This document shows positions 10,987 through 14,697 of a stretch of DNA of 15,393 nt, one piece after another. The notes under the pieces are model-generated. The model did not search any database, had not been told where the DNA came from, and saw nothing but the letters and a program-made list of their open reading frames with translations. The stretch is from Candidatus Pelagibacter sp. (GTDB lineage Bacteria > Pseudomonadota > Alphaproteobacteria > Pelagibacterales > Pelagibacteraceae). The position numbers and the translations under genes were made by a program. Each line of letters opens with the position of its first letter. Within the stretch, counting starts at the first letter, position 1. The DNA is taken from contig JAOJAE010000018.1 of assembly GCA_028227525.1 (NCBI GenBank), positions 1 to 15,393 on the forward strand. Reading direction: 5' to 3'.

Positions 10987-11718
10987 CTAGAAATTATCCT
11001 TTAAATCTCTCAATTTTGAAAAGGATTCAACATTTTTTGCCCTAAGGAATATATTGCACTCTTTTTCATCTTTAAGAATAGAAGGGATAGTAGGAACATT
11101 TTTTTTAAGTTTTTCATTAATTTTGGTTATTTTCTTTTGTAGGTCTTGGTTTTGAGGGTCATGTTCAATACAAAATTTAGAGTTTTGAAGGGTGTACTCA
11201 TGACCACAATAAATTTTGGTATCTTCTGGTAATTTTTTTATTTTTGATAAAGATTCAAACATTTCTTTATAGGTTCCCTCAAAAATTTTTCCGCACCCTA
11301 ATGAAAATAAAGTGTCACCAGTAAATATTATTTTTTCATTGAAGAAATAAAAAGCAATATGACCAGTTGTATGACCAGGAATATGAATTATTTTTGCTTC
11401 GAAATTATCCTCTTTCCATATTTGATTATCTTCTACTAAAACATTTATTTCAGGAATTCTTTCAGCATCATGTTTATATCCAATTACAATGGAATCATAT
11501 TTTTCCTTTAATTCTATATTGCCACCAATATGATCAAAATGATGATGAGTATTTAAAATATATTTTAAATTAATATTTTCTTTTTTAATGAAATTTATTA
11601 TGGGTTTCGCTTCACTTGGATCGACTACACAGGCGTCTTTTTTATTTTCATCAATAATTAAATAGCTATAATTATCTTGCAAGCACGGAATAATCTCTAT
11701 CTTAATATTATTTTTCAA
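10987..11718 (-). CDS. gloB: Hydroxyacylglutathione hydrolase (glyoxalase II), TTG start
   Basis: Metallo-beta-lactamase-fold thiolesterase that hydrolyses S-lactoylglutathione to lactate and glutathione, the second step of methylglyoxal removal. Metal ligands are visible: THHHFDH at 57-63 (His58, His60, Asp62, His63), His116 in PGHTTGH, Asp135 in TGDTLF and His173 in YCGHEY. The family segment SLGCGKIFEGT lies at 139-149. At 243 residues it fits glyoxalase II, with a somewhat short C-terminal helical domain (about 175-243). The start is TTG at 11718-11716, inside the end of metW (11-base overlap), with GGGGA nine bases upstream. No ATG or GTG fits the N-terminus IKIEIIPCLQDNY. Other thiolester hydrolases of this fold are possible. 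Confidence 0.9.
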   Translation of the reverse strand: MKNNIKIEIIPCLQDNYSYLIIDENKKDACVVDPSEAKPIINFIKKENINLKYILNTHHHFDHIGGNIELKEKYDSIVIGYKHDAERIPEINVLVEDNQIWKEDNFEAKIIHIPGHTTGHIAFYFFNEKIIFTGDTLFSLGCGKIFEGTYKEMFESLSKIKKLPEDTKIYCGHEYTLQNSKFCIEHDPQNQDLQKKITKINEKLKKNVPTIPSILKDEKECNIFLRAKNVESFSKLRDLKDNF

Positions 11719-12304
11719 TTAAAAATATCCCCAAATCAGAAAATAAATTTTTTATCCCAAGATTGTTATTATTTATCAATGATGTATTTTTTTCATTTAA
11801 AGCTAGTGATTTAAAAATTTTAAAATTTCTAGATCTTACAAAATATACAAAATCCTTAATTGTACACATATGTAAATTGGGTGTGTCATACCATTGATCT
11901 GGAAGAGTTTTTGTTACTGGCATTGTTCCTTTTATTAATAGATGTAATCTGACTTTCCAATATCCAAAATTAGGGATTGTAACTATTGCCTTTTTACCAA
12001 CTCTTAATAGCTCATTAATTACTAGCTCAGGATTTAAGAATGCCTGTAATGTTTGACTTAATATAACATAGTCAAAAGATTTATCAGGAAATTGCTTTAA
12101 ATCGAATTCTGCATTGCCTTCAATAACAGTAAGACCCTTTTCAATACATTTTTGAACTTTATTTTTAGATATTTCTAACCCTCTAATATCAATGTCTTTA
12201 TTATCTCTTAAAAATTCCATTAACACACCATCTGCACAACCAACGTCCAAGACACGTGTGTTTTTTTCAACTAAATCAGCAATTACTTTAAATTCATTTT
12301 TCAT
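11708..12304 (-). CDS. metW: Methionine biosynthesis protein MetW
   Basis: MetW, 198 residues, a class I SAM-methyltransferase-fold protein found next to metX in many proteobacteria. The SAM-binding loop VLDVGCADG (18-26) and the acidic residue of GLEIS (Glu44) are present. The family pattern PNFGYWKVRLHLLIKG (111-126) and LPDQWYDTPNLHMCTIKDF (134-152) separates MetW from general methyltransferases. Some MetX enzymes depend on MetW for activity; no methylation substrate is established. The start shares one base with the metX stop (TAATG), and gloB overlaps its end by 11 bases. The block therefore looks co-transcribed under the metX leader. Confidence 0.94.
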   Translation of the reverse strand: MKNEFKVIADLVEKNTRVLDVGCADGVLMEFLRDNKDIDIRGLEISKNKVQKCIEKGLTVIEGNAEFDLKQFPDKSFDYVILSQTLQAFLNPELVINELLRVGKKAIVTIPNFGYWKVRLHLLIKGTMPVTKTLPDQWYDTPNLHMCTIKDFVYFVRSRNFKIFKSLALNEKNTSLINNNNLGIKNLFSDLGIFLIEK

Positions 12305-13425
12305 TATTTAACAGCAGCATATGATTTATCTAAAAAGTTCTTAAGAGCACTTAAAAATTCTGGAACATCAAGTAAAAAAGAGTCGTGACCTTTATCCGAC
12401 TTTATTTCAGTAAAACCTACATCGGCACCAATAGCATTTAATGCAATTACAATATCTTTATTTTCCTGAGTAGGATAAAGCCAATCAGAAGTAAAAGATA
12501 TTACAAAAAATTTAGCTTTAGTATCTTTAAATGCATCAGATAAATTTCCATTGAATTGTTTTGTTAAATCAAAATAATCCATAGCTCTTGTGATATACAA
12601 ATAACTATTTGCATCAAATCTATCTACAAATACCGACCCCTGATGCCTTAGGTAACTCTCAATTTGAAAATCTGCATCAAAGCTAAATTTAAGATCTTCT
12701 CTTTCTTGCAATTTTCTTCCAAATTTTTCTTGGAGACCTTTTTTTGAAAGGTAAGTGATATGTGCTGCCATTCTAGCTACAGCCAAACCTTTATTGGGTA
12801 TTTTATCCTTAATATTATAATTTCCTTCATTCCAGTTACTATCAGCAGCGATTGCCTGACGACCTAGTTCATTAAAAGCAATATTTTGGGCAGAATGACT
12901 AGATGTGCATGCTATTGGTATTACAGTTTGTGCCTTATCAGGAAAATTACTAATAAATTGGAGAACCTGCATACCACCCATAGAACCCCCAACAATTGAA
13001 AAAAGTTTATCTATACCAAAGTGCTCAATTAAATTATATTGAGCATTAACCATATCATTGATTGTAATGACAGGAAAATTAGTGCCAAAAATTTTTTGTG
13101 TATCAGGATCTTTATGACTTGGTCCAAACGAACCCAAACATCCACCAATTACATTCGAACAAATTACAAAATACTTATTAGTGTCAATTGATTTATTAGG
13201 TCCTACAGCGTATGACCACCAACCATCTTTATTAGTGATTGGATTTAAACCAGCAACAAATTGATCACCTGTTAAAGCGTGAAAAACTAAAATAGCATTA
13301 TCTTTTTTTTCATTTAAAGACCCATAAGTTTCGTAGGCAATAGGGAAATTATTTATTGTTTTACCACAATCTAATTTAAGTGGTTTTTTTACTAATAAGG
13401 TTTTTAAATTTATCTCTTTGTTCAT
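12304..13425 (-). CDS. metX: Homoserine O-acyltransferase, MetX family
   Basis: Alpha/beta-hydrolase enzyme that acylates homoserine to open the methionine pathway, feeding direct sulfhydrylation or transsulfuration. It has 373 residues, normal length. Visible motifs are [12 protein letters not shown] (48-59), [14 protein letters not shown] (90-103), the nucleophile elbow GGSMGG with Ser148, Asp314 in FTSDWLYPT and His347 in KGHDSF, completing the catalytic triad. MetX members use acetyl- or succinyl-CoA, and I do not call the donor from sequence. The ATG lacks a visible Shine-Dalgarno. A SAM-II riboswitch precedes it, so SAM should repress the metX-metW-gloB unit. Confidence 0.95.
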
Positions 13426-13441
13426 AATAAGTGTGATTATT

Positions 13442-13496
13442 TGAATTGTGAGAAAAAAAACAATTTTAGCGGTTTTTTTTAAGCGCTCGCAATTCA
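13442..13496 (-). promoter_or_regulatory. Candidate expression platform: alternative hairpin with T8 tract
   Basis: On the minus strand, GAATTGCGAG (13495-13486), inside the aptamer, can pair with CTCACAATTC (13452-13443) downstream with one C-A mismatch; the flanking T (13496) and A (13442) add one more pair. Inside this stem, A8 (13480-13473) can pair with T8 (13460-13453). The structure would consume one strand of P1 and part of the pseudoknot, so it excludes the SAM-bound fold. The T8 tract directly after the aptamer suggests SAM-dependent transcription termination, with the long hairpin as antiterminator. The pairing is seen; the mechanism is inference. Confidence 0.5.
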
Positions 13497-13510
13497 GTTA
13501 AATCAGCGCA
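13461..13510 (-). promoter_or_regulatory. SAM-II riboswitch aptamer upstream of metX
   Basis: Read on the minus strand, this 50-base stretch lines up without gaps with the SAM-II aptamer I recall from the marine metX leader used for the crystal structure. P1 pairs GCGCT (13509-13505) with AGCGC (13487-13483). The 17-base loop begins GATTTAAC and holds ATTGC (13492 to 13489 region). A 12-base A-rich linker (13482-13471) leads to GCTAAAA (13470-13464). Loop and linker lengths equal those of the recalled reference. The ligand-contact bases, by its numbering, are kept: U10, U11, U21, G22, U44 and A45-A47. It should bind S-adenosylmethionine and lower metX expression. Unlike the reference, no AAGGG ribosome-binding site follows. 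Confidence 0.93.
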
Positions 13511-13515
13511 TAAAT

Positions 13516-13544
13516 TTTGTACTAGAAGTTATTTATTATGTCAA
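13516..13544 (-). promoter_or_regulatory. Promoter of metX-metW-gloB
   Basis: On the minus strand a perfect -35 box TTGACA (13544-13539) is followed after 17 bases by TACAAA (13521-13516), a 4/6 match to the -10 box. The predicted start, about seven bases further at 13509, falls on the first base pair of the SAM-II aptamer. That agreement supports both calls. Confidence 0.65.
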
Positions 13545-13555
13545 TTTTTTAAAAA

Positions 13556-13584
13556 TTGTCTTATTCAGTGTAAAAATTTATATT
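13556..13584 (+). promoter_or_regulatory. Promoter of hisC-tyrA
   Basis: TTGTCT (13556-13561) and TATATT (13579-13584) are separated by 17 bases. The predicted start is near 13591, giving a leader of about 24 bases before the hisC ATG at 13615. It stands back to back with the metX promoter: the two -35 boxes are 11 bases apart and lie in one dyad (CAATTTTT/AAAAATTG, 13542-13558). No Shine-Dalgarno is visible before hisC. Confidence 0.55.
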
Positions 13585-13614
13585 TTTATCTATAAAGAGC
13601 TCATAGTAAAAAAA

Positions 13615-14697
13615 ATGACCATTCCAAAATTTAAAAGATTTAATATTGAAGCTTATAAGCCAGGTAAATCTAAAATAAAAAAACTTAAAAAAATTATAAA
13701 ATTGTCAGCAAATGAGTCAGCCTTGGGGATGAGCCCCAAAGCAATGAAAATAATTTCTGATAAAAGTTTAAAATTAGAGAGATACCCAGATGGAAAATCT
13801 GAACTTTTGAGAAAAGAAATTTCAAAAAAATATAAATGTAAAAGTGATAAAGTTATATGTGGAGCGGGATCGGATGAGGTTATTCAAATGATTTGTCAAT
13901 TATTCCTAAACCCTAAAGATGAAGTCGTTGTACCTCAATATAGCTTCTTAATGTACAGGATTTATGCAAATATTGTAGGTGCTAAAGTAATATTCGCAAA
14001 AGAAGTAAACTTTAAAATTTCAATATCAGAAATAATAAAAAAAGTTACAAGAAAAACTAAAATAGTTTTTTTAGCAAATCCAAATAACCCAACTGGAACT
14101 TATTTGACTAAAAAAGAATTATTAGAGTTAAGAAAAAAATTAAATAAAAATATACTATTGGTAGTTGACGATGCGTATGCAGAATATATGAAAAACAAAG
14201 ATTATAAATCAGGCTTAGACTTGTTTAAAAATAAAGACAATGTTTTCATTTTAAGAACTTTCTCAAAAATATTTGGTTTAGCCTCTTTAAGAGTGGGGTG
14301 GGGATATGGTTCTAAAAAAATTGTAAATGCTTTAAATATAATTAAACCACCATTTAATGTAAGTCAGCTTGCTCAATTAACAGCAATACAGTCACTTAAA
14401 GATTCTAAATTTATTGAAAAATCGATAAAGCATAATTTAATTTTTGCTAAGAAAATAAAGTCTTTTCTAGAAAAATATCAAATATTTTCCAATAAGATTT
14501 CAGCAAACTTTTTATTATTAGATTTTAAAAGCTGCAGATATTCAGCAAAAAATTTTTATGAGAAGCTTAAAAAGAGAGGAATAATTGTTAGATCAACAGA
14601 AGATGGTTATCATATTAAAAATAAATTAAGACTAACCATTGGATCGAAAAGTGAAAATTTAGCATTTATGAATGCTGTAAAGAATATATTAAGTTAA
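13615..14697 (+). CDS. hisC: Histidinol-phosphate / aromatic aminotransferase (HisC family)
   Basis: PLP-dependent class II aminotransferase, 360 residues, normal HisC length. Visible features are SANESALGMSP (31-41), RYPDGKSELLR (56-66), GAGSDEV (83-89), NPNNPTG (155-161), the PLP-phenol contacts Asp185 and Tyr188 in VVDDAYAEY, the Schiff-base Lys218 in TFSKIFGLASLRVGWGYG, and Arg339 in RLTIGS for the substrate carboxylate. By family it could transaminate histidinol phosphate in histidine synthesis. Because tyrA follows after one base, a role with prephenate, phenylpyruvate or hydroxyphenylpyruvate is at least as likely, as in other alphaproteobacterial hisC-tyrA pairs. The symbol gives the family, not a proven reaction. 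The gene is extremely lysine- and isoleucine-rich. Confidence 0.9.
   Translation: MTIPKFKRFNIEAYKPGKSKIKKLKKIIKLSANESALGMSPKAMKIISDKSLKLERYPDGKSELLRKEISKKYKCKSDKVICGAGSDEVIQMICQLFLNPKDEVVVPQYSFLMYRIYANIVGAKVIFAKEVNFKISISEIIKKVTRKTKIVFLANPNNPTGTYLTKKELLELRKKLNKNILLVVDDAYAEYMKNKDYKSGLDLFKNKDNVFILRTFSKIFGLASLRVGWGYGSKKIVNALNIIKPPFNVSQLAQLTAIQSLKDSKFIEKSIKHNLIFAKKIKSFLEKYQIFSNKISANFLLLDFKSCRYSAKNFYEKLKKRGIIVRSTEDGYHIKNKLRLTIGSKSENLAFMNAVKNILS

Follow-up and report, generated by a model that had tools for sequence, protein, structure and literature searches.

The present analysis asks how a SAM-II riboswitch may control metX in Candidatus Pelagibacter sp., and is based on a contig stretch of 15,393 nucleotides, all of which is referred to here as the window. 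The aptamer ends 35 bases before the metX ATG (at 13425, minus strand), and between the two stand a T8 tract, a strand complementary to most of the aptamer core (the arm), and a further 17 bases of spacer. The question is at which step such an arrangement could read out SAM. A SAM-II element before metX of 'Ca. Pelagibacter ubique' (SAR11_0217) was named by Meyer 2009 (PMC2704228), and the window shares with it the gene, the organism group and the aptamer class; the accessible part of that account mentions no arm, T run, outer helix or expression platform. A 2016 paper, in the part available, describes SAM-II before bhmT and metX as affecting transcription (PMC5069961); the locus tag SAR11_0217 is absent from its main text. 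No description of this arm or of the outer helix was found in the literature searched, some of it available in part; the 2009 SAM-V paper, the likeliest place for one, lay outside that search, and both features may already be described there.

The aptamer and its gene context

A preliminary description made from the bare sequence had assigned the aptamer to the SAM-II class, and this was borne out by a full-length RF01726 match, by the P1 and P2 pairs and by the metX-metW context; its coordinates also proved right (Table 1). The RF01726 covariance model aligned over 60/60 positions with 30.4 bits (E 3.9e-4, 281 bases searched), which is below the Rfam gathering score of 44, as the 23.7 bits for RF00521 are below 36. 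An Rfam scan at gathering scores returned no match in the window, and SAM-II was seen only in a lax scan, as a sub-gathering match at 13456-13515. SAR11 leaders behaved likewise, with 0/7 genomes above the cut-off, and because RF01726 scores these leaders below its gathering score, SAR11 SAM-II riboswitches may be missing from standard annotation.

The element combines a P1 stem with an H-type pseudoknot P2 that contains the conserved GCTAA strand, and the genes downstream of it are methionine genes, as expected of the class. P1 and the inner P2 pairs were kept in 32/32 distinct aligned rows, P1 without variation, and the outer P2 pairs in 89.8% of alignment cells, the window having U.U where most relatives show U-A; the exact P2 register is our own reading of the sequence. 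There was no covariation in P1 or P2 among 36 chosen leaders (32 distinct), because these pairs hardly vary. Judged by this sequence, RNA from the window would be expected to bind SAM. The promoter layout TTGACA-17-TA(A/C)AAA was found in 80/80 of the best 80 metX relatives, and the metX transcript is expected to start close to the first base of P1. The promoter consensus scan requires the second hexamer to end in T, and the TACAAA promoter of the window is therefore unlisted.

Table 1. Features of the metX leader and neighboring genes in the window
Feature	Position	Strand	Basis
metX, homoserine O-acyltransferase	12304..13425	-	NCBIfam PRK00175.1 MetX, 514 bits (cut-off 331)
metW, next after metX	11708-12304	-	TIGR02081, 237 bits (cut-off 189.5)
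Promoter: TTGACA 13544-13539, 17-base spacer, TACAAA 13521-13516	13516..13544	-	sequence
SAM-II aptamer including pseudoknot P2	13461..13510	-	RF01726 alignment and relatives
SAM-II P1: GCGCT 13509-13505 with AGCGC 13487-13483	13483..13509	-	RF01726 alignment
P2 pairs	GC 13490-13489 with GC 13470-13469; AAC 13499-13497 with G 13461 and first U's	-	
Core of the aptamer, GAATTGCGAG; forms the 5' strand of the middle helix in the free fold	13486..13495	-	sequence, relatives
A8 in linker L3, able to pair with T8 (inner helix)	13473..13480	-	sequence, fold
AAAATTG, 3' end of aptamer	13467-13461	-	sequence
T8 tract, immediately 3' of P2	13453..13460	-	sequence
Anti-aptamer strand (arm) CTCACAATTC; pairing with the start-codon region is a possible alternative	13443..13452	-	fold, relatives
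Spacer AATCA, pairing with TGATT 13505-13501 as outer helix of the free fold	13434..13438	-	minimum-energy fold; complementarity in relatives above shuffles

The preliminary description took it that classical SAM-II aptamers end at the ribosome-binding site they hide, a premise that was off, since a hidden site is not the sole classical arrangement. It does hold for the metX SAM-II from the Sargasso Sea (2QWY), which is likewise a compact H-type pseudoknot before metX but carries its ribosome-binding sequence inside P2, according to the accessible parts of PMC10907184 and PMC5352136, whereas P2 of the window has no such site. The metA SAM-II of Sinorhizobium meliloti, as given in the part of PMC9373788 available, likewise acts on a far-downstream start codon, with a Shine-Dalgarno sequence serving a start 74 nt downstream; the window, in contrast, has no Shine-Dalgarno sequence, and its arm would switch partner. 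Combinations of SAM-II with an intrinsic terminator (S. meliloti metZ, predicted; the bhmT tandem of SAM-II and SAM-V), as described in the portions seen of PMC9373788, PMC11508383 and PMC9481103, share the aptamer class and the off-switch logic. The type found in the window differs from these in having no terminator hairpin and in a competitor that pairs with the core and P1, not with GCTAAA from within a terminator.

A conserved strand against the aptamer core

The arm can pair at 9 of its 10 bases with the core, with an additional flanking pair T13496/A13442. Folding of RNA 13510-13426 predicted the hairpin and an additional outer helix, with an energy of -15.9 kcal/mol (z -3.25, 0/200 shuffles as good), and this folding, with the conservation of the arm, supports the preliminary claim of a free-RNA hairpin that excludes the aptamer. 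In leaders folded up to -1 the minimum-energy structure was the hairpin in 102/102 distinct leaders, with at least four outer pairs in 98. The effect was modest for the aptamer-to-arm part in relatives (mean z -0.79 against shuffles, z < -2 in 1/112), and with coding bases added the hairpin share of the predicted ensemble in the window drops from 1.00 to 0.63. The pair GAATTGCGAG and CTCACAATTC (13443-13495) looks like a split lac operator; with 33 bases between its halves, the likeness was set aside as coincidence.

Relatives were collected in several steps. A first scan retained the best 80 metX loci, all SAR11, and in all 80 the core, a T7-T9 run and the arm were present, one with an altered first arm base. 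An aptamer-only model, cut off ahead of the T run to avoid favoring it, matched 357/397 genomes of the order, and loci were added from 88 genomes hand-chosen to spread over the score range. The 242 sequences gave 199 with a metX hit and 196 parsed leaders (three metX loci, L141, L168 and L170, had no parsed aptamer and lie outside the 196); all leader counts are loci and not independent lineages, some genomes being counted twice (L081 and L123). The arm occurred in 167/196 parsed metX-linked SAR11 SAM-II leaders, with 29 lacking it. Because the arm is kept in 167/196 while the adjacent spacer varies (104 distinct spacers), its conservation, on the sequences compared, is above chance. The core was present in 167/167 arm-bearing leaders versus 3/29 other metX-linked leaders, and in each of the 167 the G that ends P2 is followed directly by at least five T, with 0-3 bases between T run and arm. 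The run was T6-T9 in 165 parsed relatives and T5 in three further loci, L242-L244. The exact pattern of core, GCTAA and CAATTC was found in 242/397 genomes of the order, one of them (G185) only through a second CAATTC further on, and its reverse in none; of 96 genomes sampled from the class, the center genome alone matched. Conservation of the downstream arm and T tract, which the preliminary description had named as a test, was found for both.

Among 165 arms (two arm-bearing loci, L191 and L198, fall outside this set) the forms were CTCACAATTC in 130, CTCTCAATTC in 27, CTCCAATTC in 5, ATCACAATTC in 2 and CTCCCAATTC in 1. A G opposite the mismatch, which would complete the helix, occurred in 0/165, and no perfect arm was found among the 165 or in 20 further loci taken because they looked odd or divergent. 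It is from these 20 that L242-L244 (G079, G226, G185) come, with arm CTCGCATAATTC after their T5, in which the missing pair is restored and a two-base bulge appears instead; L245, from the same set, has arm TTCCAATTC, which keeps the pairing with a deletion. The arm search required CAATTC, so L242-L244 would not count as arm-bearing. Each arm form tried makes at least 8 pairs with the core and has a defect, with predicted duplex energies from -5.7 to -8.9 for natural arms and -13.6 for the unseen perfect arm; placed in the leader of the window, the latter would deepen the predicted fold from -15.9 to -21.3. Because the perfect arm is missing, and because the one lineage with the missing pair carries a bulge, the sequences suggest selection that holds the competitor arm at a set strength, though shared ancestry is the chief reason for caution.

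The covariation that the preliminary description had proposed as a test in the 13495-13486/13452-13443 stem did not appear, with zero two-sided changes among the 36 chosen leaders (32 distinct), because the core, its 5' side, never varies; nor was two-sided covariation seen there in any other helix. Matching of A-run and T-run lengths was considered as a sign of pairing (Spearman 0.27 over 165 loci, 0.28 over 118 distinct leaders) and dropped, the value being 0.11 (p 0.44) on 56 distinct aptamer-to-arm sequences.

The outer helix, which the preliminary description did not mention, joins the spacer to the 5' strand of P1. In relatives, nucleotides 2-12 of the aptamer paired with the spacer at a mean of -5.05 versus -2.03 for shuffled spacers, the real spacer being better in 92/102 leaders and in 26/31 clusters (the 31 clusters being drawn at 90% MetX identity), and the energy reached -4 or lower in 58/102 leaders. 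For 157 other SAR11 genes, the 17 bases preceding the start gave -2.07 versus -1.93 when shuffled, with 25/157 at or below -4. The triplet AGC was found in 50/104 metX spacers (8.4 expected) and in 8/157 upstream of other SAR11 genes. Pairing of the spacer with the P2 strand GCUAA was also tried and rejected (-2.42 versus -0.80 shuffled), being weaker than that with nucleotides 2-12. Leaders with spacers shorter than 10 bases were omitted from this comparison and from that of start-codon accessibility below, and the assigned start codon may be wrong in a few cases.

Other platforms and the MetX tree

The 29 armless leaders carry other platforms behind the aptamer: 15/29 have GCCC(A/G)G...CTGGGC with T9, 11/29 a CC(G/A)CC...GG hairpin with a T run, and 3/29 are of another sort. 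In the first two kinds the hairpin includes TTTAGC or a similar strand able to pair with aptamer GCTAAA, which by sequence would be the usual antiterminator arrangement. MetX identity to the window was 72.6-100% for arm-bearing loci and 60.9-71.7% for armless loci, so that the ranges are separate. In a tree of 58 MetX proteins (29 hand-picked from the 167 arm-bearing loci, and the 29 others) the arm-bearing rows were 29/29 on one side of a branch with support 100/99. One leader with a GCCCAG terminator, L162, is sister of the arm-bearing rows in the midpoint-rooted drawing, followed by 14 further terminator-bearing rows. A single change from terminator to arm is the simplest reading of this tree, and from the sequences the ancestral platform seems to have been a terminator. 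At the position of the T run L162 has a T5, ahead of its separate GCCCAG...CTGGGC-T9 terminator, and this T5 is likely the forerunner of the T run after P2.

Several further SAM-II elements came to light in these genomes. Eight arm-bearing genomes (L205-L207, L210, L236-L239) contain a further SAM-II that carries CCACC...GGTGG-T9; in the two of them examined, L205 and L236, this is followed by a SAM-V aptamer above its gathering score and then by a gene with a homocysteine S-methyltransferase domain, which is the known SAM-II/SAM-V tandem. In L184, L209 and L214 (about 1501-1570, oriented) a SAM-II-like element has GGAG close before the ATG of a short reading frame, 55-57 aa long in L184 and L209 and with no Pfam match; judging from sequence, these elements look like direct start-site hiding, and L208 has a similar element with AGAG. 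In L132, L135 and L166 a SAM-II stands before metW and not metX, a small hairpin and a T run lying near the start (metW was identified by TIGR02081 in L132 and by likeness in L135 and L166).

The step at which the switch would act

The preliminary description proposed that the SAM-bound pseudoknot followed by U8 acts like an intrinsic terminator. Here its reading divides: the SAM-II identity, the competing hairpin and the conserved T run and arm stood, and termination at T8 was not supported, the arm lying downstream of T8 and no terminator-like stem being present. In folding of successive prefixes, which took 14 nt as inside the polymerase and left pseudoknots such as P2 out of the model, the P1 hairpin was predicted when polymerase had just finished T8 and about 44 nt were outside, and the arm fold from about position 82, the arm pairing about 24 bases after the end of T8, near the ATG. 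In this model the arm cannot be an antiterminator for T8, because it is transcribed after T8 and its fold appears only at about position 82; the competing strand of an attenuator would be made before the U tract. Nor is there a GC-rich stem directly before the tract, only the weak, A/U-rich P2 abutting T8 (with its U.U in the window), and the scan for terminator-like sites, which is blind to pseudoknots, found 0 in 13380-13620. Judging from L162, where the T5 precedes a separate, real terminator, the T run does not have to serve as a terminator tract.

Termination could still occur if the SAM-bound pseudoknot and U8 made up an intrinsic terminator and the arm only locked read-through transcripts on afterwards. 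The constant abutment of P2 and T run in the arm-bearing leaders, the short gap to the arm, the occurrence of terminators after SAM-II in sister lineages and the description of metX SAM-II as affecting transcription would all fit, yet we regard this explanation as doubtful. The arm would be inactive until T8 had been passed, and its tuned strength would then be unexplained; a decision at T8 is further disfavored because a perfect arm should then be harmless, yet is unseen. The T run is also only T5 in L242-L244, and a 2024 review, in the part accessible, calls a terminator directly stabilized by its ligand unlikely (PMC10907184). Somewhat more doubtful again is that the SAM-stabilized pseudoknot is itself the terminator, with the U8 tract, and the arm a latch, so that aptamer and expression platform would be fused in about 70 bases. 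Rho offers another route, in which the U/C-rich, G-poor stretch running from T8 up to the ATG would be single-stranded in SAM-bound RNA and load Rho, and would be hidden in the hairpin when SAM is absent. The timing fits, the arm being already transcribed, the stretch is indeed C-rich and G-poor, and a Rho protein over the cut-off was found in 9/10 SAR11 genomes searched, but the stretch is short and we consider this improbable. Expression data bear on both routes: in the part of PMC5069961 available, P. ubique metX is missing from the 23 genes whose mRNA or protein changed sixfold on sulfur limitation, whereas bhmT mRNA is in that list and was up 33.8-fold in sulfur-limited exponential cells. 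The absence of metX counts a little against termination and also against a strong translational switch, with smaller changes being possible. Slightly more improbable than Rho is that the arm is non-regulatory, with the hairpin a 5' mRNA stabilizer or the arm a DNA or ribosome element; the pairing is unproved by covariation, which would allow this, but the observed arm variants keep complementarity to the core, including those of L242-L244 and L245, and the spacer is complementary to P1 too.

We give about even chances to a SAM-II riboswitch with a lineage-specific platform, in which a competitor hairpin takes the place of a terminator and the decision falls after the arm has been made, probably at translation. 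Sequence, conservation, pairing potential and phylogeny are observed; SAM binding by this RNA, the folding kinetics, and an output at translation rather than transcription we infer. The transcript would start close to P1, which would fold first, and SAM could bind once P2 had emerged, with arm and spacer emerging later. Without SAM, one long three-part hairpin would form, in which the arm pairs with the core, the spacer with the 5' strand of P1, and the U run with the A run; the aptamer would be destroyed and the AUG left unpaired, the on state. If SAM held the core in the pseudoknot, the freed arm and U run could instead pair with the AUG region, the off state. Because of its standing defect, the arm would form a hairpin that SAM could still compete with.

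Predicted accessibility of the start codon was compared between free RNA and a proxy of the SAM state, made by leaving the aptamer out of the fold. The probability that the AUG is unpaired was 0.88 free versus 0.42 in the proxy with sequence to +12 (lower in 30/31 clusters) and 0.58 versus 0.39 to +36 (27/31); by leader, it fell from 0.84 to 0.36 with 12 coding bases (107/110) and from 0.50 to 0.35 with 45 (89/110). Other SAR11 genes gave 0.53 (to +12) and 0.45 (to +36), and a shuffled arm 0.57 and 0.50, the real arm being lower in 23 and 22 of 31 clusters. The wider window -14..+9 did not differ between the states (0.54 versus 0.56, lower with SAM in 70/134; 0.63 and 0.57 in a second set, where the arm was just masked), and -12..-5 ran the other way, at 0.56 without SAM and 0.73 in the proxy, so that it was more closed in the free RNA. 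Because of these unchanged and opposite results the sign of the change over the start region is not clean, and the predictions fit an off-switch at the start codon only weakly. Pairing of the arm with coding sequence was rejected as a group-wide rule (-6.34 observed, -4.48 with synonymous codons, -3.86 for the rest of the gene) and is kept as a possibility only, because strong pairing is confined to a few groups, ATGAATACTGAG (mean -9.7) among them, which carry the effect. A start hexamer ATGA(A/G)(T/C) was found in 101/110 arm-bearing leaders versus 35/157 other genes, and may simply be inherited because several armless metX leaders start likewise.

The patterns detected point to an apparent swap of platform at one gene and on one well-supported tree, in a major group of ocean bacteria: a competitor hairpin seems to have replaced a GC-rich terminator, the aptamer having hardly changed. 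A set strength of the competitor is directly testable, and the arm variants are a ready natural mutant series for measuring how a riboswitch is tuned.
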